DNA of 64,000 nucleotides from Mumia xiangluensis (GTDB lineage Bacteria > Actinomycetota > Actinomycetes > Propionibacteriales > Nocardioidaceae), in assembly GCF_010994095.1 (NCBI RefSeq), contig NZ_WJYO01000002.1, positions 682,001 through 746,000 of the forward strand. Direction: 5' to 3'. Of this stretch, positions 11,260-20,773 are shown in pieces. The translations under genes were made by a program, and so were the position numbers. Within the stretch, counting starts at the first letter, position 1. The number at the start of each line of letters is the position of its first letter. Below the pieces are notes generated by a model that was not told the DNA's origin, did no database searches, and worked only from the letters and a program-made list of their open reading frames with translations.

Positions 11260-12069
11260 TCAGGGCAGCTGGTCACCAGAGTGCGGGCCGGCGTCTCCGA
11301 ACGCCGCGACTGTCCGGTCGCGGTAGGCGGAGACGTCGGCCCGTTCCATGGGACCGTCCCACACCTTCGGCAGCGGCACTGCGACGTCGGGCGCGAGCCG
11401 CGCCACGATCTCGTCCAGCACCCGCTCGGTGTCACCGACCCAGAGGTGTTTCGCGCCGTCCACGCCGATGACCTCCGCCTGAGGCACGCGCTCGAACCGC
11501 TCGCGTGCCTCGGCAGGACGAAGGTAGTCGTCGTGCTCCGGCACCAGCGCGACGAGCGGCTTCTCCGACTCCGCCCACGCGTCCAGGTCCGCCGTGTCGG
11601 AGTAACGCAACGGCGGTGACAGCAGGATCGCGCCCTGCACCTCGGAGTCGAGCCCGTACTTGAGCGTCAGGTCGGTCCCGAACGACCAGCCGACGATCCA
11701 GATGTTCGGCAGGTCCTCGAAGTCCGCGAGCTCGATCGCCGCGGCGACGTCGTACTTCTCGCCGCGGGCGTTGTCGAACTCCCCCTCGCTCGTCCCCTGC
11801 ACGCTGGTCGTGCCCCGGGTGTTGAACCGGAGCACCGCGATCCCGGCGAGCGCCGGGAGCCGGTACGACGCCTTGCGGAAGACGTGGCTGTCCATCATCC
11901 CGCCGTGGGTCGGGAGGGGGTGGAGGCAGATCATCGTGGCGACCGGCTCGCGGTCCTCAGGGAGTGCGAGCTCCCCCACCAGCTCCAGGCCGTCGGCGGT
12001 GTGAAGGGTGATCGGGGTACGTCGGGCGGGCAGCACCGAGGTGCCCCGGATGACCTGTGCGTCGCTCAC
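11260..12069 (-). CDS. Alpha/beta hydrolase
   Basis: 269 residues. Seen: nucleophile elbow GWSFGTD, an oxyanion-type segment MICLHPLPTHGG near residue 50, an acid region VPEHDDYLRP and catalytic His in DGAKHLWVG. This layout fits the dienelactone-hydrolase-like or YcjY-type group. The substrate cannot be told. The start is GTG 12069; a TAGGGT box sits 6 bases upstream, so it may be leaderless. It ends 2 bases from the coiled-coil gene (tail to tail). Confidence 0.8.
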   Translation of the reverse strand: MSDAQVIRGTSVLPARRTPITLHTADGLELVGELALPEDREPVATMICLHPLPTHGGMMDSHVFRKASYRLPALAGIAVLRFNTRGTTSVQGTSEGEFDNARGEKYDVAAAIELADFEDLPNIWIVGWSFGTDLTLKYGLDSEVQGAILLSPPLRYSDTADLDAWAESEKPLVALVPEHDDYLRPAEARERFERVPQAEVIGVDGAKHLWVGDTERVLDEIVARLAPDVAVPLPKVWDGPMERADVSAYRDRTVAAFGDAGPHSGDQLP

Positions 12070-12186
12070 CCGACCACCCTACGGTCCGTGGTCCTGTGCG
12101 ATCCGGTCGCGGGGCACGCGTGGGCGCAGTAGCCTCCGAGTGCCGCGATCGGACGTGGGGACGGTCGCAGGCACAAGGGGGAAGCC

Positions 12187-14603: not shown

Positions 14604-14807
14604 GTGAGGTACGAGATCGTGACCGACGGCGTACTCTCCGACGTCTCGCGTTCGGCACTGCACGACCGGGGTCTGGACGTGCTGGCACGGCCGGACGGGA
14701 GCATCGCACTGCGTGGCGAGTTCACCGGTCTCGCCGAGCTGAACGACGTGATCTTCGCCTTGGAGGACTTCGGCCTCGGGCTGGTCTCGGTTCACCAGAT
14801 TCCCTGA
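14604..14807 (+). CDS. Small ALRGEF-motif protein, copy 1
   Basis: 67 residues from GTG 14604 (VRYEIVTDGVL...). No family recognised. The second half, IALRGEFTGLAELNDVIFALEDFGLGLVSV in character, matches the protein at 17299-17565 (VALRGEF..RAELLGALQALEELGVELVEV). An upstream in-frame GTG (14559) would add 15 poorly conserved residues. It lies just before the AI-2E transporter gene. It may be a small ACT/BON-sized domain, but no function can be assigned. Confidence 0.6.
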   Translation: MRYEIVTDGVLSDVSRSALHDRGLDVLARPDGSIALRGEFTGLAELNDVIFALEDFGLGLVSVHQIP

Positions 14808-14861
14808 AGTCACACCTCGCGGGTGAGACGCGAACGGCCCGCGGTGCCCTAACGTCGAGAT

Positions 14862-15989
14862 GTGCCTGACGACTCCGTTGCTCCGCCGAGGTCCTCGATC
14901 CCCCGCGAACCCCTCATCATCGTGACCCTGGCGGCTGCGCTGCTCGCGATTGTCGGCCTACGGCAGTTCTCCGGAATCCTAGGCCCGCTGATCCTCGCAC
15001 TCGTCCTCGTCATCGCCGTCCAGCCGATCCGCGACTGGGCAGTCGGACGCGGTCTGCCCGAGTGGTTCGCGACCATGGTCACGTTGCTCGCGGTGTACGC
15101 GATCGTGATCGGCTTCGCCCTTGCGCTCATCCTGACCGGTGCACAGTTCGCCAGCGCACTCACCGAGTACGAGCCGCAGTTCAACGAGTTCGTCGACGAC
15201 GTGTCCCAGAAGATGGCTGACCTGGGGATCGGTTCCGAGCAGATCCGATCGATGCTCAGCGACGTCGACCTCGGTGGTCTGGTCGACGTCGCGACCAACC
15301 TGATCGGCGGTCTCGCGGGCACCATCACCAGCCTCTTCTTCATCATCGTGCTGCTCTTCTTCGTCGCCACGGACGCGGGCGCGTTCACCTCGAAGCTCCG
15401 GGCAGTGCCGTCGATCGGGTCCCGCACGGCGGAAGCGTTCGGCGTGTTCGCGGCGGGCACCCGGTCGTACCTGGTCGTCTCGACGCTGTTCGGGCTCGTG
15501 GTCGCCCTCATCGACGTGATCGGCCTCTACGCGCTCGGGATCCGTGATGCCTGGCTGTGGGGCCTGCTGGCGTTCCTGACGAACTACATCCCCAACATCG
15601 GATTCGTCATCGGCCTGATTCCGCCGACGATCATCGCGCTCCTCGACCATGGCATCGGCACCGCGATCGCCGTGATCGTGATGTACTCCGCCGTGAACTT
15701 CGTCCTCCAGACGCTGATCCAGCCGCGGGTCGTCGGCAACTCCGTCGGGTTGTCCGGGTCGCTCACCTTCATCTCCCTCATCTTCTGGGCCTCGATCTTC
15801 GGCGGGGTCGGAGCGATCCTTGCGATTCCGCTCACCCTGCTCGTGAAGGCGATCTTCATCGACGTCAGCCCGGACCGGAGCTGGATCGGGCCGCTGCTGT
15901 CCAGCACACCGCACCAGGCAGACGGCGCTCCTCAGCCGAAGCGTCGCTCACATCGCACGAAGGAGACCCGCGATGACGGAGCCCGATAA
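14862..15989 (+). CDS. AI-2E family transporter (PerM/TqsA-like)
   Basis: 375 residues, multi-pass membrane protein. Hydrophobic segments are paired at about 20-60 and 70-95, followed by an extracytoplasmic/helical stretch (about 95-145), then five more segments. The conserved family phrases LTNYIPNIGFVIGLIPP and LIQPRVVGNSVGLS are present. Members export autoinducer-2 or other small solutes, or act as Na+/H+ antiporters, so the substrate is uncertain. Start is GTG 14862. The end overlaps the next gene by 17 bases, so both are probably one operon. Confidence 0.85.
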   Translation: MPDDSVAPPRSSIPREPLIIVTLAAALLAIVGLRQFSGILGPLILALVLVIAVQPIRDWAVGRGLPEWFATMVTLLAVYAIVIGFALALILTGAQFASALTEYEPQFNEFVDDVSQKMADLGIGSEQIRSMLSDVDLGGLVDVATNLIGGLAGTITSLFFIIVLLFFVATDAGAFTSKLRAVPSIGSRTAEAFGVFAAGTRSYLVVSTLFGLVVALIDVIGLYALGIRDAWLWGLLAFLTNYIPNIGFVIGLIPPTIIALLDHGIGTAIAVIVMYSAVNFVLQTLIQPRVVGNSVGLSGSLTFISLIFWASIFGGVGAILAIPLTLLVKAIFIDVSPDRSWIGPLLSSTPHQADGAPQPKRRSHRTKETRDDGAR

Positions 15990-17331
15990 CGAGGTCACCC
16001 AGCTGCGAGCCGAGGTTGCGGCGCTGCGCGGCCAGCTCGCCGAGCAGTCCGAGGGCGGAGGCTCACCACCGTCCTCGGACGCCGGCCGGACCGGATGGTG
16101 GCGCACCCCGCTGGTCGCCGTCCTCGTGCTGCTCGGCACCCTCATGGCACCCCTGTCGGTCGTCGCCACCTGGGCGCACGACGAGATCGGCGACACCGAT
16201 CGCTACGTGGAGACGGTCGGCCCGCTGGCGAGCGAGCCTGCGGTCCAGGCGGCGATCACCGATCTGGTGACCGAGACGATCGTCACCAGGCTGAACCTCG
16301 AGCAGGTGACCGAGGACGCGCTCACCGCGCTGTCACAGCAGAGCTTTGTCCCGCCCCGTGCCGAGCCGCTCCTGCCTGCGCTGAGCACTCCGCTGACGAA
16401 CGCCGTCGAGAACTTCGTCCACGACACCGTCGCACGGGTCGTCCGAAGCGACGCGTTCGCTGACGCCTGGGTCGCCGCCAACCGGGAGGCCCACGCCCAG
16501 GCGGTCGCCGTCCTGACCGGTGAGTCGAGCGGCGCGGTCGAGACGTCGGACAACGCCGTGAGCATCAACATCGCGCCCTTCATCGAGGCATCGAAGGAGC
16601 TCCTGGTCGATCGCGGGTTCGAGCTCGCCTCGCGCATCCCGACCGTCGACGCCTCGTTCGTCCTCTTCCAGTCGGCGGACATCGGCAAGGCGCAGAGGTG
16701 GTTCAGCTGGCTCGACACCCTCGCACGGGTGCTCCCGATCCTCGGGCTGATCCTGCTCGCCACGGCCGTGATGGTCGCGCGCGACCGCCGCCGTACGGTG
16801 ATCACGGCATCGTTGGCAGTCGCCGTGTCGATGCTGCTGCTGGGCCTCACGCTCAACCTCGTCAGGCCCGTCTATCTCGACGCGGTGCCGACCGACGTCC
16901 TCCCGGTCGACGCCGCAGCCGTGATCTACGACCAGCTCGTCGAGTTCGTCCGCACGGCACTTCGCGCCATCCTCGTCGTCGCCCTTGCGATCGCCATCGC
17001 AGCGTTCCTGTTGGCGCCGACCGGCGCGGGGGCCGCGATCCGGACGGGCGCCGCCGGCGGCCTCGCCTCGCTGCGGGCGAAGTCCGGCGTACGACGTGGT
17101 CCGGTGTCGACGTTCGTCAGCACGTACCGGACCTTTGCTCGAGTGCTTGTCGTCGCCCTCGGGGCGCTCGTCTACATCTCGTTGGATCATCCGACCGGCG
17201 GGAGTGCGCTCGTGATCGTGATTCTCGTCGTCCTGGGCATCGTGGTCGTCGAGTTCCTCGCGGGGCCCCGCCGCACCGACGAGCAGGCCAGCGACGACTC
17301 AGCCGACGTCCCGCCCGCGGCCGGGGTCTGA
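15973..17331 (+). CDS. Multi-pass membrane protein with large extracytoplasmic domain
   Basis: 452 residues from ATG 15973, with GAAGGAG upstream. A short coiled coil (EVTQLRAEVAALRGQL) is followed by one membrane helix (about 44-65), a predicted outside domain (about 66-245), then several helices and a C-terminal membrane pair. The pattern resembles actinobacterial integral membrane proteins annotated only as hypothetical. It overlaps the AI-2E transporter gene by 17 bases. Function not known. Confidence 0.7.
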   Translation: MTEPDNEVTQLRAEVAALRGQLAEQSEGGGSPPSSDAGRTGWWRTPLVAVLVLLGTLMAPLSVVATWAHDEIGDTDRYVETVGPLASEPAVQAAITDLVTETIVTRLNLEQVTEDALTALSQQSFVPPRAEPLLPALSTPLTNAVENFVHDTVARVVRSDAFADAWVAANREAHAQAVAVLTGESSGAVETSDNAVSINIAPFIEASKELLVDRGFELASRIPTVDASFVLFQSADIGKAQRWFSWLDTLARVLPILGLILLATAVMVARDRRRTVITASLAVAVSMLLLGLTLNLVRPVYLDAVPTDVLPVDAAAVIYDQLVEFVRTALRAILVVALAIAIAAFLLAPTGAGAAIRTGAAGGLASLRAKSGVRRGPVSTFVSTYRTFARVLVVALGALVYISLDHPTGGSALVIVILVVLGIVVVEFLAGPRRTDEQASDDSADVPPAAGV

Positions 17332-17565
17332 GGGAGCTGGATCGTCCTGCTGGGTGACCTCGACCAGCTCGACGCCGAGCTCCTCGAGCGCCTGGAGCGC
17401 CCCGAGCAGCTCGGCTCGGTCCTTGAACTCACCGCGCAGCGCCACCGGGCCACCCACGTCGACCCGCAGCCGCAGCGCTCCGAGCGCCGAGACGAGTGCC
17501 TCGTCCAGGTCCGCGCGCACCACCACCCCGAACGAGGTGCGGCGGCCCGGCGAGGCACTCGTCAT
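17299..17565 (-). CDS. Small ALRGEF-motif protein, copy 2
   Basis: 88 residues from ATG 17565, with GGAG six bases upstream; longer starts are unsupported. Residues about 35-70 (VALRGEFKDRAELLGALQAL, then EELGVELVEVTQ) match the protein encoded at 14604-14807. The tail is Pro/Asp-rich. The last 33 bases overlap the end of the convergent membrane-protein gene. It lies 10 bases downstream of the DUF7144 gene on the same strand, so co-transcription is likely. Function not known. Confidence 0.6.
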   Translation of the reverse strand: MTSASPGRRTSFGVVVRADLDEALVSALGALRLRVDVGGPVALRGEFKDRAELLGALQALEELGVELVEVTQQDDPAPSDPGRGRDVG

Positions 17566-17575
17566 GGCATCTCCG

Positions 17576-17977
17576 TCAGCTTTCGAAGTCAGGGGTGTAG
17601 TTGGCAAGTGCCCAGATCAGGACGACGTTAAACGCGATGATCAGGACGCCCCAGACGGGGTAGTACGGCAGCCAGAGGAAGTTCGCGACGATTGACAGGA
17701 TCGCGATACCGATGCCTGCGCCGCGCGCGAACGCGTTGCCGGTCATGATCGCGAACGCGATCACGATGAAGAGGATTCCGAGGACGAGGTGGATCCACCC
17801 CCACGTCGTCGTGTCGAACGAGAACAGGTAGTTCTCGGTGGTGACCAGCAGGTCGTCTTTGGCGATGGCAGCGATGCCTTGGAAGACCTGGACGAAACCG
17901 ATGATCGCGAGCATCGCTGCCGCGAAGATCGTGACTCCCTGTGCCCACGGATTGCTGGTGCCGGTGCGGCTGGACAT
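17576..17977 (-). CDS. DUF7144-type four-helix membrane protein
   Basis: 133 residues with four transmembrane helices (about 14-36, 60-80, 85-105, 108-128) and the family's phrases WAQGVTIFAAAMLAIIGFVQVFQG and WGWIHLVLGILFIV. The ATG follows AGGAG. These proteins are common in actinobacteria, and the function is unknown; I recall them near general-stress genes. The neighbours on this strand (SHOCT and DUF6325 proteins) fit that setting. Confidence 0.75.
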   Translation of the reverse strand: MSSRTGTSNPWAQGVTIFAAAMLAIIGFVQVFQGIAAIAKDDLLVTTENYLFSFDTTTWGWIHLVLGILFIVIAFAIMTGNAFARGAGIGIAILSIVANFLWLPYYPVWGVLIIAFNVVLIWALANYTPDFES

Positions 17978-18101
17978 GGGTGCTCCTTCGATAGGCGGCG
18001 GCCGGCCCGCCGCGTACCCCCAATGTGTCGGCGTGCCACCGCTGCTGCATCACTCCGACGGGGTGATTCGCGCACCACGAGTCGGGCCGGCCGCAACCCG
18101 G

Positions 18102-18455
18102 TCAGCCGTTGAGGATCTTCGCCTTCTCCGCCGCGAACTCCTCGGCCGTGAGGATCCCCTGCTGCTGGAGCGCCGCCAAGCGCTCGAGCTGGCCGACGAC
18201 GTCGCCGCCGGCCGGAGCAGCGGGTGCAGCCTGCGGCGCGGCGTACTGCTGGGCCGCCGCTGCCTGGGCGGCGGCCGCTTGCATCGCGGCCTGCTGCTGC
18301 TGTTGTTCGTACGCCTGTGCCTGGGCTTCCTGTTCGTACCGGGCGTCGTTGCGGCGCTGCATCCGGTTGTTCACCGCTCCTGCGGTTCCGGCCACCACAG
18401 CGGTCCGTGCGGCGAGTCCCACCAGCCCCGGTCGTCCCATGCGTCGTGCGAGCAT
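18102..18455 (-). CDS. SHOCT-domain protein with Ala/Gln-rich linker
   Basis: 117 residues from ATG 18455, with GAGGAGGAG upstream. A short N-terminal hydrophobic segment (GLVGLAARTAVVAGTAGAV) is followed by an Ala/Gln-rich linker, then a C-terminal SHOCT domain (about 88-117: DVVGQLERLAALQQQGILTA, EEFAAEKAKIL), a short helical oligomerisation module. It starts 14 bases after the DUF6325 gene, forming a two-gene operon. This pairing is common in actinobacteria. Confidence 0.85.
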   Translation of the reverse strand: MLARRMGRPGLVGLAARTAVVAGTAGAVNNRMQRRNDARYEQEAQAQAYEQQQQQAAMQAAAAQAAAAQQYAAPQAAPAAPAGGDVVGQLERLAALQQQGILTAEEFAAEKAKILNG

Positions 18456-18469
18456 GCTCTCCTCCTCGT

Positions 18470-18907
18470 TCAGTCTGTGCTCAGCGCCGCGGCGACGGCG
18501 TCGAGGTCGGCTCGGTCGATGCGCTCGTGCGCCAGCACCACGCCGCCGACCCTGTCGAGCGCGGCGGCGAAGCGAGCGGCCCACACGTTCTCCCAGACGA
18601 CCAGTACGGCGGCGGTGCCCGGCGGAACCTCGTCGGCGATCGCCAGGATGTCCTCCTCACCGAGCAGTCCCGGCACGTCGCTCTCGATCCCGAGGACGTC
18701 CTTCACCGCCTCGCCGTCGTCGACGTCGATGATGGTCAGGTCTCCGTCGTCCGCCCGCGCGACGATCACCGCGTCGAGCAGGCGCACGGCGCCGCTCGCG
18801 ACGGCGTCCGCGACCACCTTGGCGACGCTGCCATCCGGCTGGTAGCCCTCCAGGAACCCCAGCACGGCGATATCGACCGGACCGGACGGGCCTACGCTCT
18901 CGGCCAT
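18470..18907 (-). CDS. DUF6325 family protein
   Basis: 145 residues from ATG 18907 (MAESVGPSGPVDIAVLGF). An upstream ATG (18928) lacks a ribosome site. Conserved phrases are GPVDIAVLGFLEG, AGVVRLLDAVIV-like GAVRLLDAVIVAR, GTAAVLVVWENVWAARFAAAL and a C-terminal amphipathic helix. The family is probably ferredoxin-like and has no known function. It is the first gene of the pair with the SHOCT protein. Confidence 0.8.
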   Translation of the reverse strand: MAESVGPSGPVDIAVLGFLEGYQPDGSVAKVVADAVASGAVRLLDAVIVARADDGDLTIIDVDDGEAVKDVLGIESDVPGLLGEEDILAIADEVPPGTAAVLVVWENVWAARFAAALDRVGGVVLAHERIDRADLDAVAAALSTD

Positions 18908-18961
18908 CGGTACCCCTCTCTCCGACATTGTTGCCACCAGCCTCTCCGCTGCCGGTCGAGC

Positions 18962-18988
18962 GCGGATCACCCTCGACGGGTGATCCGC
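18962..18988. terminator. Perfect 11-bp hairpin after the phosphatase gene
   Basis: GCGGATCACCC, a 5-base loop, then GGGTGATCCGC. It touches the stop codon of the phosphatase gene (18989) and precedes the DUF6325 gene on the same strand. Probably an intrinsic terminator without a T-run. Confidence 0.6.
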
Positions 18989-19801
18989 TCAGCGGTCGAC
19001 GAGCAGCCGCTCGCGGAGCGCGGCCTGAGTCGCCGCGTCGATGCCCAGCCCGTCGGCGAAGTACGTCGCCACGTCCCCGTAGGTGCGCCGCATCACCGCG
19101 AGGCTGGTCGCGAGGTACTCCGGGCGTACCCCGAGCACCGGCAGGAGCAGGTCCGGGTCGCCGCCGAGCGACGCGAAGTGGTCGAGGACCGGCTGGAGCG
19201 CCGGGAGGAGCTGGTCGTTCGTCAGGAGGTACTCGTGCTCCACGACCTCCTCGGGCACCCCGAGGAGCATCAGCGTGCTCGCCGCCGCCCAACCAGTCCG
19301 GTCCTTGCCGGTCGTGCAGTGGAAGAGCGTCGCACCGCTGCCGGCGGCGAGGACCCTGAAGAACGCCCCGTACGACGCACGGGCGCTGGGCAGCGTGACG
19401 AGGTGCTCGTACGCCTGGAGGAACGCTGCTCGAGCCTGTCCGTCCGACAGCAGGTCACGCGCGCGCCCTGGGTCCTCGAGGATCTCCGCCATGTCGGTCG
19501 GCGCAGCCTGTACGGCGTCGGCGAGGACGTCGAGGACCACCTCGTCGGCGCCGTCGAGACGGACGTCAGGTCGGCGTTCGCGCTCCGGCGCGGTCCGCAG
19601 GTCGACGACGGTGCGGATGCCGAGACCTTCGACGACGGCGGTGTCCGTGCCCGTGAGCCGGCTCAGGTCGGTCGATCGGAAGAGGACGCCTTCGCGCACG
19701 GCCCGCCCGTCGGCTGCGCGCCAGCCGGCGAGGCTGCGGAGGTTCGGCAACGTCGCGACGGGGATCGGTGTCCCGGGAGCGGTGCGGTCGTGCTCGGTCA
19801 T
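18989..19801 (-). CDS. Tyrosine phosphatase, PtpB-like (Y_phosphatase3)
   Basis: 270 residues. The active-site loop HCTTGKDRTG matches HCx5R with the Lys-Asp typical of the mycobacterial PtpB group, which can dephosphorylate phosphotyrosine, phosphoserine and phosphoinositides. The N-terminus NLRSLAGWRAADGRAVREGVLFRS (seen in parts) and VVDLRT are the usual family opening. The start overlaps the YihY stop (ATGA), so the two are translationally coupled. Substrates here are unknown. No secretion signal is seen. Confidence 0.88.
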   Translation of the reverse strand: MTEHDRTAPGTPIPVATLPNLRSLAGWRAADGRAVREGVLFRSTDLSRLTGTDTAVVEGLGIRTVVDLRTAPERERRPDVRLDGADEVVLDVLADAVQAAPTDMAEILEDPGRARDLLSDGQARAAFLQAYEHLVTLPSARASYGAFFRVLAAGSGATLFHCTTGKDRTGWAAASTLMLLGVPEEVVEHEYLLTNDQLLPALQPVLDHFASLGGDPDLLLPVLGVRPEYLATSLAVMRRTYGDVATYFADGLGIDAATQAALRERLLVDR

Positions 19802-20676
19802 GGCTCATCCTGACGGAGCCGGCCCGGGACTGCGCGCCCGGCCGTGGCCAGCAGGCGCGCGGTGAGGCCGCGATCGCGCATCCAGACGGACAGCTCGTAG
19901 CCCACGACCGCGGTCCCGACCAGGACGTACGCGACGATGACGAGCCACGCGACGATGGCGAACGCGACGCCGATGACGCCGTACCGCTGCGCGTCGATGG
20001 CGATGAGATGCGGCACGTACAGGTGGCTCCACCAGCCGGCGACCAGCTGGACGATCGTCGTCAGGACCGCGGCGGGGAGCAGGTCCTCCAGATCGGCGCG
20101 TCCGCCCAGCTCGATCCGGATCAGCACGACCCAGAGCGGGACCGAGAGCAGCAGCTGGATGACGATCCCGGCCGGCCCGAGGAGGTGACCGACCCAGCCG
20201 ACCAGCACGAACGTCCCGAGCATGAACGCCAGGCCGCCGATGCCGGAGACGGCTGCCCGCACGCGCGGTGCTGGCGCGCGCTGCCAGGCCAGCTCGTACA
20301 GGCGCTGGAGCGATCGGCTGAACGATCCGACCGAGAAGAGCAGGATCAGGAACCCGAGCAGCGTGAGGCCCCCCGTGGCGTCGGGCGGGCTGGCGAAGAG
20401 CGCTTCGACGGCTTCGGCCGTGCTGCCCGTCAGGTCGAAGTACTCGATGAGGATGTCGGCAGCCTGCGCGTTCCCGTCACGCGAGAGCCAGCCGGAGACG
20501 ACCACGAGCAACGGGATCAGCGCGATGAAGGCCTGGCCGGCGAGCGTGATCGCACGGTTGCGGCCGTCGATCTCGTACATCCGTCGCATGCAACGGCCCG
20601 GGAACGAACGCTCGAACCAGTCACGGGCGGTGACGAACCGCGCGCGCCAGCGCTCGATCCTGTCCGCGGCCGCCAT
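19798..20676 (-). CDS. YihY/BrkB family membrane protein
   Basis: 292 residues, multi-pass. It shows the family's phrases ITLAGQAFIALIPLLVV, FSVGSFSRSLQRLYELAW and the glycine-rich final helices. Some members are called virulence factor BrkB or were once thought to be RNase BN. Real function unknown. It is the first gene of a two-gene operon with the phosphatase. The 97 bases upstream contain a small hairpin (TCACCC, 5-base loop, GGGTGA, near 20712-20728). Confidence 0.85.
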   Translation of the reverse strand: MAAADRIERWRARFVTARDWFERSFPGRCMRRMYEIDGRNRAITLAGQAFIALIPLLVVVSGWLSRDGNAQAADILIEYFDLTGSTAEAVEALFASPPDATGGLTLLGFLILLFSVGSFSRSLQRLYELAWQRAPAPRVRAAVSGIGGLAFMLGTFVLVGWVGHLLGPAGIVIQLLLSVPLWVVLIRIELGGRADLEDLLPAAVLTTIVQLVAGWWSHLYVPHLIAIDAQRYGVIGVAFAIVAWLVIVAYVLVGTAVVGYELSVWMRDRGLTARLLATAGRAVPGRLRQDEP

Positions 20677-20773
20677 GCGTGCCAGTCTGTCCGCAGCCGG
20701 AGTCCGGGGGCGTCACCCGGGCCGGGTGAGTCGACCGGTCGCTGCGGCTCGCGAGCACCAGCTGCAGACCGGC

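Follow-up and report, generated by a model that had tools for sequence, protein, structure and literature searches.

What do two small, related genes do on either side of a pair of genes for membrane or probably membrane-bound proteins? The question is raised by a 64,000-nucleotide stretch of the Mumia xiangluensis genome (NZ_WJYO01000002.1, positions 682,001 to 746,000; hereafter the window), in which two small proteins, P0001 (67 aa) and P0002 (88 aa), are encoded on opposite strands and flank an AI-2E family transporter gene and the gene of a 452-aa protein, both on the plus strand (Table 1). An earlier note had read this arrangement as an uncharacterised small domain family with a role near the membrane proteins. 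Our analyses showed that the small-protein family is real, widespread and unnamed, and that its association is with MalT-type regulators, not with AI-2E genes; the family itself therefore stands, and its usual companion is a regulator gene lying just outside the segment on which that proposal was built. We somewhat favour the explanation that the small proteins are dedicated partners of a MalT-type activator, which would bind palindromes and drive four operons of the window. In actinomycetes, large ATP-binding regulators of the LuxR family (LAL) govern genes for antibiotics and stress responses, and few of the signals to which they respond are known; a small family that accompanies one LAL type across genomes offers a concrete way to approach these signals.

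Both reading frames were confirmed, and P0001 has an alternative 82-aa form from GTG 14559 whose frame is likewise open. The ALRGEF pattern of about 35 residues was recovered as 18 identical residues of 34 (P0001 32-65 against P0002 39-72; BLASTP, E 6e-9 in a single comparison), and profile alignment and structural models extended the homology to one domain of about 65 residues present in both. When the whole genome was searched, the only non-self match below E 0.01 of each small protein was the other one (E 1.1e-3 and 8.6e-4). The genus is represented by five other genomes; four keep both genes, on opposite strands, and neither was found in the fifth (G003). Compared with genome G005, synonymous change exceeded nonsynonymous change both for P0001 (dS 0.79, dN 0.19) and for P0002 (dS 0.51, dN 0.06), and they therefore look selected as real protein genes. 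Since the P0001 and P0002 groups were sisters in a tree of 150 domains (support 0.88), each of them well supported (0.95 and 0.99), they look like the outcome of a duplication older than these five species.

Relatives occur far outside this locus. Among 296 genomes drawn from across the phylum, a profile of 21 relatives (A1) detected at least one member in at least 41, and among 244 genomes of the taxonomic family in at least 70, the candidates scored being limited to 19 and 23. In named genomes, a scan with a narrow subfamily confirmed 116 places, the best 80 of which, all of one subfamily, were analysed; members were found in Nocardioides, Kribbella, Streptomyces, Geodermatophilus, Georgenia, Virgisporangium, Acidimicrobiales and several Chloroflexota metagenome-assembled genomes (MAGs), among others. 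The family is thus common in Actinomycetota and also occurs in Chloroflexota MAGs. No confident Pfam or NCBIfam match was obtained for the 21 members scanned (best E 0.035 and 0.016, respectively), and DUF397 was absent from their Pfam matches. Identity with the BON domain was considered and is not favoured, as the matches were weak (BON_like in one of 21 members at Pfam E 0.035; ArfA/OmpATb in four, best NCBIfam E 0.027; OmpATb structures matched by profile A1 at E 0.075), the confident model is ferredoxin-like and the fold searches list ferredoxin-like proteins. A phage origin was dropped, the PHROGs matches being weak and scattered; the best of them, to a RuvC-like resolvase family (4.8e-4, three of 21 members), is probably due to chance. 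Among the top-ranked results of an open-access literature search, no description of the small family together with LAL regulators was found.

Profile A2, built from the window regulator and 11 relatives, matched residues 1-419 of MalT (8bob) at E 2.8e-98 and also the MalT sensor (1hz4) and GerE domains, and the Walker A motif is present in the open reading frame (ORF) as ATPAGYGKT. The window regulator is accordingly a predicted MalT-type STAND/LAL protein, in which ATP/ADP-switched oligomerisation and ligand sensing would be expected. It is the sole match of its kind in its genome (G000) at E<=1e-30, and such regulators are few elsewhere (1-6 matches per genome in 12 genomes). In the 12 genomes, 22 of 24 family genes lay within about 4 kb of a MalT-type regulator, compared with 0.19 expected from regulator density under a simple density model; the two unlinked genes are G132:C1:1723077 and G088:C1:3866560. 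Counted by gene order, the regulator (mostly 700-1150 aa) adjoins 64 of 106 family members and lies within three genes of 87. At the 80 named loci, 74 of 83 family ORFs were within 2 kb of a regulator, and 72 of these were downstream of it on the same strand with a median gap of 180 bp. The remaining nine ORFs belong to seven loci, and eight of them had no regulator in the fetched DNA; three loci meet a contig end (L249, L257, L289), L263 is on a 3.3-kb contig, and L260, L267 and L295 remain, of which L267 has its regulator 3.1 kb away and L295 holds three of the unlinked ORFs. In the other sample of 150 ORFs, which like the 106-member count and the 79-site count below includes duplicates from overlapping loci (L131/L204, L164/L203, L099/L205), a regulator was present within 2 kb for 122 and within 5 kb for 136. 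Because the link was kept there in all four relative orientations, it does not reflect just one frozen operon. A regulator of >500 aa lies within 2.5 kb of 113 family genes, which gives 98 distinct regulators, and in every case the regulator match reached the end of the helix-turn-helix (HTH). In the five genomes of the genus that hold P0001 or an orthologue the gene always lies behind the regulator.

AI-2E and DUF7144 genes, which the earlier note had named as the associates to look for, were much less frequent neighbours. Within five genes of the small gene at 82 loci of the main family cluster, the regulator was found at 75, DUF7144 at 24, the 452-aa family at 18 and AI-2E at 10; at the 80 named loci, AI-2E was near in 1, and the cluster's other families were not found. 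AI-2E as the partner of the small proteins was rejected on these frequencies.

Linkage and co-descent of the regulator and the small protein are both observed. A regulator match was present in 12 of 12 family-positive and 8 of 30 family-negative genomes (Fisher 1.1e-5), both sets being hand-picked from earlier listings, with at most 79 candidates scored per genome in the positive and at most 31 in the negative set. The sister species G003 is without the regulator as well as both small genes; it keeps a relative of the 452-aa protein (41% identical), but a search of the 16 kb surrounding that gene found no member of the other families of the cluster. Regulator and small-protein tree distances were correlated (r 0.69; 98 pairs from 74 genomes) when only regulators of >500 aa within 2.5 kb were kept, as also in the HTH count above. 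Permutation of the pairs reached at most r 0.20 (2000 permutations), and shuffling within genomes averaged 0.43 and peaked at 0.66, with none of 5000 shuffles reaching the observed value, which shows specific co-inheritance of the two proteins. On the regulator tree the label linked or unlinked changes 12 times, compared with a mean of 18.7 and a minimum of 13 in 300 shuffles, so that the link is clade-bound, yet was gained or lost several times.

An alignment of the intergenic DNA of the genus revealed a conserved palindrome before the DUF7144-P0002 and DUF6325-SHOCT genes. Written as TCACNC-N5-GNGTGA, it has four sites in the window, all at 14.8-20.8 kb and one before each operon, where 0.21 were expected and none of 100 shuffles reached four; a 19-base form is matched perfectly at only two places in the genome, both of them in the cluster, and with one mismatch at six. 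Over 220 loci (2.45 Mb, window included), 79 sites were found in 42 loci, and 78 of the 79 were intergenic in DNA that is 85.5% coding, a status that depends on gene calls by an in-house script. With a site between divergent genes counted for both, they precede 17 small-protein, 15 DUF7144, 7 BrkB, 6 AI-2E, 6 DUF6325 and 5 regulator genes, 3 genes of the 452-aa family and 45 other genes. The median distance to a start codon was 83 bp, and strict sites numbered 58 with a spacer of 5, 15 with a spacer of 0, and 0-2 at each spacer of 1-4 and 6-10; the reversed control pattern had no strict sites in the loci of this count, which omitted four overlapping or empty loci. Genome-wide, 142 strict sites occurred in 28 genomes with the system against 8 in 18 genomes without it (Mann-Whitney 1.3e-7), a comparison that leaves out the family-positive but site-free G065, G108, G132 and G231. 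G003, of the same genus and without the system, has no strict site.

With the palindrome upstream of them, the membrane genes appear to be controlled by the circuit rather than to work together with the small proteins. Distant sites were also found. An amino-acid permease gene carries the palindrome about 105 bp upstream both in L322 (contig C4 of G000) and in L338 (G377, another genus), which marks it as a putative conserved distant target; other distant sites precede sulfatases, DUF1269 and SHOCT proteins, and the regulon may therefore reach beyond the cluster. The palindrome makes the circuit testable, in that it predicts targets and, via the small gene in the presumed regulon, a feedback loop. 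The circuit also ties together DUF7144, DUF6325, DUF1269 and SHOCT, and a literature search found no paper connecting these four. A form with the same half-sites and no spacer, TCACCCGGGTGA, is intergenic in L178, L182, L164, L134, L131 and L118; spacer-0 sites lie mostly close before small-family genes of other branches, and some of them may be terminators.

As to the protein that reads the palindrome, a comparison is offered by the Streptomyces protein BldM, which carries a LuxR-type HTH. BldM is a response regulator with the half-site GGGTGA and the Group I consensus 5'-TCACcCgnncGgGTGA-3' (PMC4125116). With this half-site in common, a LuxR-type HTH is expected in the reader here as well, and the MalT-type regulator is the only HTH protein among the scanned cluster genes. 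Palindrome sites also accompany it across genomes, and regulators in palindrome loci tend to the HTH consensus NTVKTHlRaiYRKLG, unlike linked regulators without a palindrome. We consider it quite probable that the MalT-type regulator is the palindrome binder.

The AlphaFold2 model of P0001, based on 73 sequences, is a compact small domain with a beta-alpha-beta-beta-alpha-beta order and a mean predicted local distance difference test score (pLDDT) of 94.6; the model of P0002, from 37 mostly distant sequences, has the same order of elements at pLDDT 69. The homologues are thus widespread and their predicted fold is conserved. In VIA-align comparisons the top group (Z 8.1-8.7) comprised Lrp/AsnC RAM domains, ACT domains of acetohydroxyacid synthase subunits, permuted ribosomal S6 and a SecDF domain. 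P0001 scored Z 8.7 with the RAM domain 1ri7 (root-mean-square deviation 2.1, 67 aligned), Z 8.6 with the ACT domain of the acetohydroxyacid synthase regulatory subunit 2f1f and Z 8.2 with FFRP-DM1 2e1a, and P0002 reached Z values up to 7.7. Identity in the 13 top rows was 4-18%; permuted S6 scored equal to ACT and RAM, and acylphosphatases and HMA domains nearly so. Foldseek returned nothing below 0.001 for P0001 (best E 0.011, an acylphosphatase), and no ACT or AsnC family was among the Pfam and NCBIfam matches of the 21 members at E 0.1. The models thus point to a ferredoxin-like fold, with the ACT/RAM resemblance as a lead only. ACT and RAM domains share with the small family the order of elements, and stand-alone forms of them exist; they differ in that no sequence similarity with it was detected, and because such a relation is not recognisable P0001 and P0002 were not filed as ACT/RAM members.

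In the mechanism that we propose, P0001 and P0002 would be two copies of a ferredoxin-like (ACT/RAM-like) partner of the neighbouring STAND activator. The ATP-bound, oligomeric regulator would bind the TCACNC-N5-GNGTGA palindromes and turn on the AI-2E/452-aa, DUF7144-P0002, DUF6325-SHOCT and BrkB/phosphatase operons, and the small proteins would attach to the regulator and adjust its activity, in the way that MalY, Aes and MalK, to which they are unrelated, control MalT. The P0001 gene immediately follows that of the regulator, and the position of P0002 inside a presumed target operon suggests feedback, so that this copy would close the loop. We infer that the regulator binds the palindrome and that small protein and regulator are in contact, and the same holds for the grouping of the genes into operons, for whether the effect is positive or negative and for any ligand. 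In PMC10427625, Escherichia coli MalT is described as resting in an ADP-bound monomer and forming an oligomer with ATP and inducer; it is held off by MalY, Aes or MalK, and MalY, by forming a 2:2 complex with it, obstructs one of the faces needed for oligomerisation. The window regulator shares with MalT the architecture (STAND NOD, superhelical sensor, GerE HTH), and protein modulators are known there, but MalY and Aes are enzymes and MalK is a transporter subunit (PMC10427625), whereas the candidate modulator here is a family of 67-88 aa whose genes, in many genomes, are linked to that of the regulator. A further likeness is found in Streptomyces, where, as PMC10364602 describes, a regulator gene is often followed by one for a small protein of unknown function; the pairs there consist of XRE regulators and DUF397. 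By analogy with MalT the small proteins may act on the regulator, inhibition and sensing in trans both being possible. More generally, and more tentatively, MalT-type activators of Actinomycetota and Chloroflexota may often be two-part rather than single-chain sensors, with a dedicated ferredoxin-like subunit (an obligate A/B pair in one branch) that would bind the regulator and carry the signal, while the operator branches would run an unnamed envelope-related regulon (AI-2E, DUF7144, DUF6325, SHOCT, DUF1269, BrkB).

Other explanations assign the parts differently. ACT and RAM domains are known as amino-acid sensors, and the small proteins might be ligand-binding sensor subunits of this kind that pass a metabolite signal to the STAND regulator in trans, as co-activators and not as inhibitors. 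The presence of 1ri7, 2f1f and 2e1a among the nearest folds favours this, and the A/B pairs and fused double-domain proteins described below fit the pairing of such domains; the likeness is in fold only, however, and is matched or nearly matched by permuted S6, acylphosphatases and HMA domains, and we regard the explanation as rather doubtful. In a reading close to that of the earlier note, the small proteins might be ordinary regulon members that act together with AI-2E, DUF7144 or the 452-aa protein at the membrane and never touch the regulator. P0002 and its orthologues do adjoin DUF7144 on the same strand across the genus, the palindrome precedes family genes, and several membrane families recur near small-family genes. 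Against this speak the named loci, where the regulator is present at nearly all and the single AI-2E gene is the only sign of the other cluster families, the constant place of P0001 and its orthologues behind the regulator, and the compact small domain modelled for P0001; we think it distinctly improbable.

The palindrome, in turn, might be bound by a BldM-like response regulator encoded elsewhere, with the STAND regulator, the small proteins and the membrane genes all as its targets. The Group I operator consists of the same half-sites as an inverted repeat (PMC4125116), and since the site here is one spacer base off, such a protein could bind it; moreover, no site precedes the window regulator, though regulator genes elsewhere and small genes have one. 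Yet the Group I site in that source is a 16-bp palindrome with a spacer of 4, compared with 5 here and 0 in a minor set; with 58 sites at spacer 5 against 2 at spacer 4, the sites found do not have the form of the BldM regulon. BldM and the window regulator also differ in architecture. The scarcity of strict sites in genomes without the system, the lack of any in G003 and the position of the regulator as the only HTH protein among the scanned cluster genes argue against this explanation too, and we hold it to be unlikely.

Several observations weigh against a dedicated pair of MalT-type regulator and small protein acting through the palindrome. Linkage alone could also give congruent trees. 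Twenty loci with MalT-type regulators (11 of the 12 regulator matches of the negative genomes and nine unlinked ones of the positive genomes) had no family member at E 0.05 within the fetched 13-14 kb. Two of the four scanned with Pfam have a kinase domain and no GerE match, and in several others the match stops before the HTH; others look like ordinary LuxR regulators. Conversely, 14 of the 150 family ORFs, duplicates included, had no regulator within 5 kb. The palindrome occurs in only 42 of the 220 loci. It was absent from the 80 named loci of the commonest subfamily and from 6 of 16 loci of the paired A/B subtypes, so that the operator belongs to part of the family. The four site-free genomes named above hold members mostly of the common subfamily, and G001 and G354 have the system and no strict site. 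Of the 33 sites in 20 further regions that were selected for having one, 30 were intergenic and 3 were within called genes. The window regulator itself has no palindrome before its gene. Finally, regulators without the small family have an HTH consensus similar to the one seen in palindrome loci, which makes the HTH comparison weak.

Among these unlinked regulators, L304:4177-8040 and L320:4237-8151 begin with a Ser/Thr kinase domain that is joined to the same STAND core, and have no GerE match. In L303, L307 and L308, DUF6325 genes lie beside or near the regulator, and DUF6325 may thus be another companion of MalT-type regulators.

Some branches of the family hold pairs. A subtype A protein (clade support 0.95) was always accompanied by a subtype B domain (0.75), in 16 of 16 loci, encoded either by the gene next to it or within the same gene, as the second domain of a fusion protein; the pairing is firm only in the direction that A implies B, and among the fetched loci, because subtype B was found mainly where subtype A had led to the locus. 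The frequency of pairs is inflated, since many loci in one set of 20 were chosen for two family matches close together. Counting P0001 and P0002, pairing seems to have arisen at least twice, and the recurrent pairs and fusions suggest that the small domain works as a hetero- or pseudo-dimer. Among 207 called family-matching proteins, none was fused to the regulator; the greatest lengths were reached by six double-domain proteins (156-167 aa) and by a single protein of 285 aa that includes an acetyltransferase. In this last protein (L215:5421-6278) the small domain is fused to a GNAT acetyltransferase (Acetyltransf_3, E 7.9e-27), and in L187 a similar acetyltransferase gene directly follows the small gene. 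A second function or a target may be involved in this association.

Table 1. Genes and palindromes of the regulator and small-protein cluster (positions in the window).
Feature	Coordinates	Strand	Remarks
MalT-type LuxR/LAL STAND ATPase regulator, 775 aa	12187..14514	+	GerE PF00196 E 2e-12 at 714-768
P0001 (SF1), small protein, 67 aa	14604..14807	+	GTG start; 89 bp downstream of regulator gene
Palindrome TCACNC-N5-GNGTGA	14810..14826		precedes AI-2E / 452-aa genes
AI-2E family transporter	14862..15989	+	PF01594 E 1.1e-45; start 14922 also possible
452-aa protein, probably membrane-bound	15973..17331	+	no Pfam family; overlaps AI-2E gene by 17 bp
P0002 (SF2), 88-aa paralogue of P0001	17299..17565	-	ATG start, 10 bp after DUF7144 gene; 3' end overlaps 452-aa gene
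DUF7144 protein	17576..17977	-	PF23636 E 7.7e-42; first gene of likely operon with P0002
Palindrome	18050..18066		precedes DUF7144-P0002
SHOCT-domain protein, 117 aa	18102..18455	-	PF09851 E 1.5e-6; longer ORF 18102-18584 open
DUF6325 protein	18470..18907	-	PF19850 E 3.9e-15, scored on longer ORF 18470-18970
Palindrome	18967..18983		precedes DUF6325-SHOCT
Tyrosine phosphatase family protein	18989..19801	-	PF13350 E 4.6e-63; likely operon with BrkB-like gene
BrkB-like protein	19798..20676	-	PF03631 E 1.8e-10; likely operon 18989..20676
Palindrome	20713..20729		precedes BrkB operon

The 452-aa protein, which has no NCBIfam family either, is present in all six genomes of the genus, and its relatives were found in 18 loci near the small family. 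Between positions 12000 and 21000 of the window, a promoter and terminator scan was of no use, giving no sigma-70-like site and 3 terminator-like sites where 1.2 were expected. In the interval 12070-12186, between the divergent hydrolase and regulator genes, conserved blocks (CCTACG and CTAGCCTCC) were observed in five species; they are unlike the palindrome and may be the regulator's own control site.

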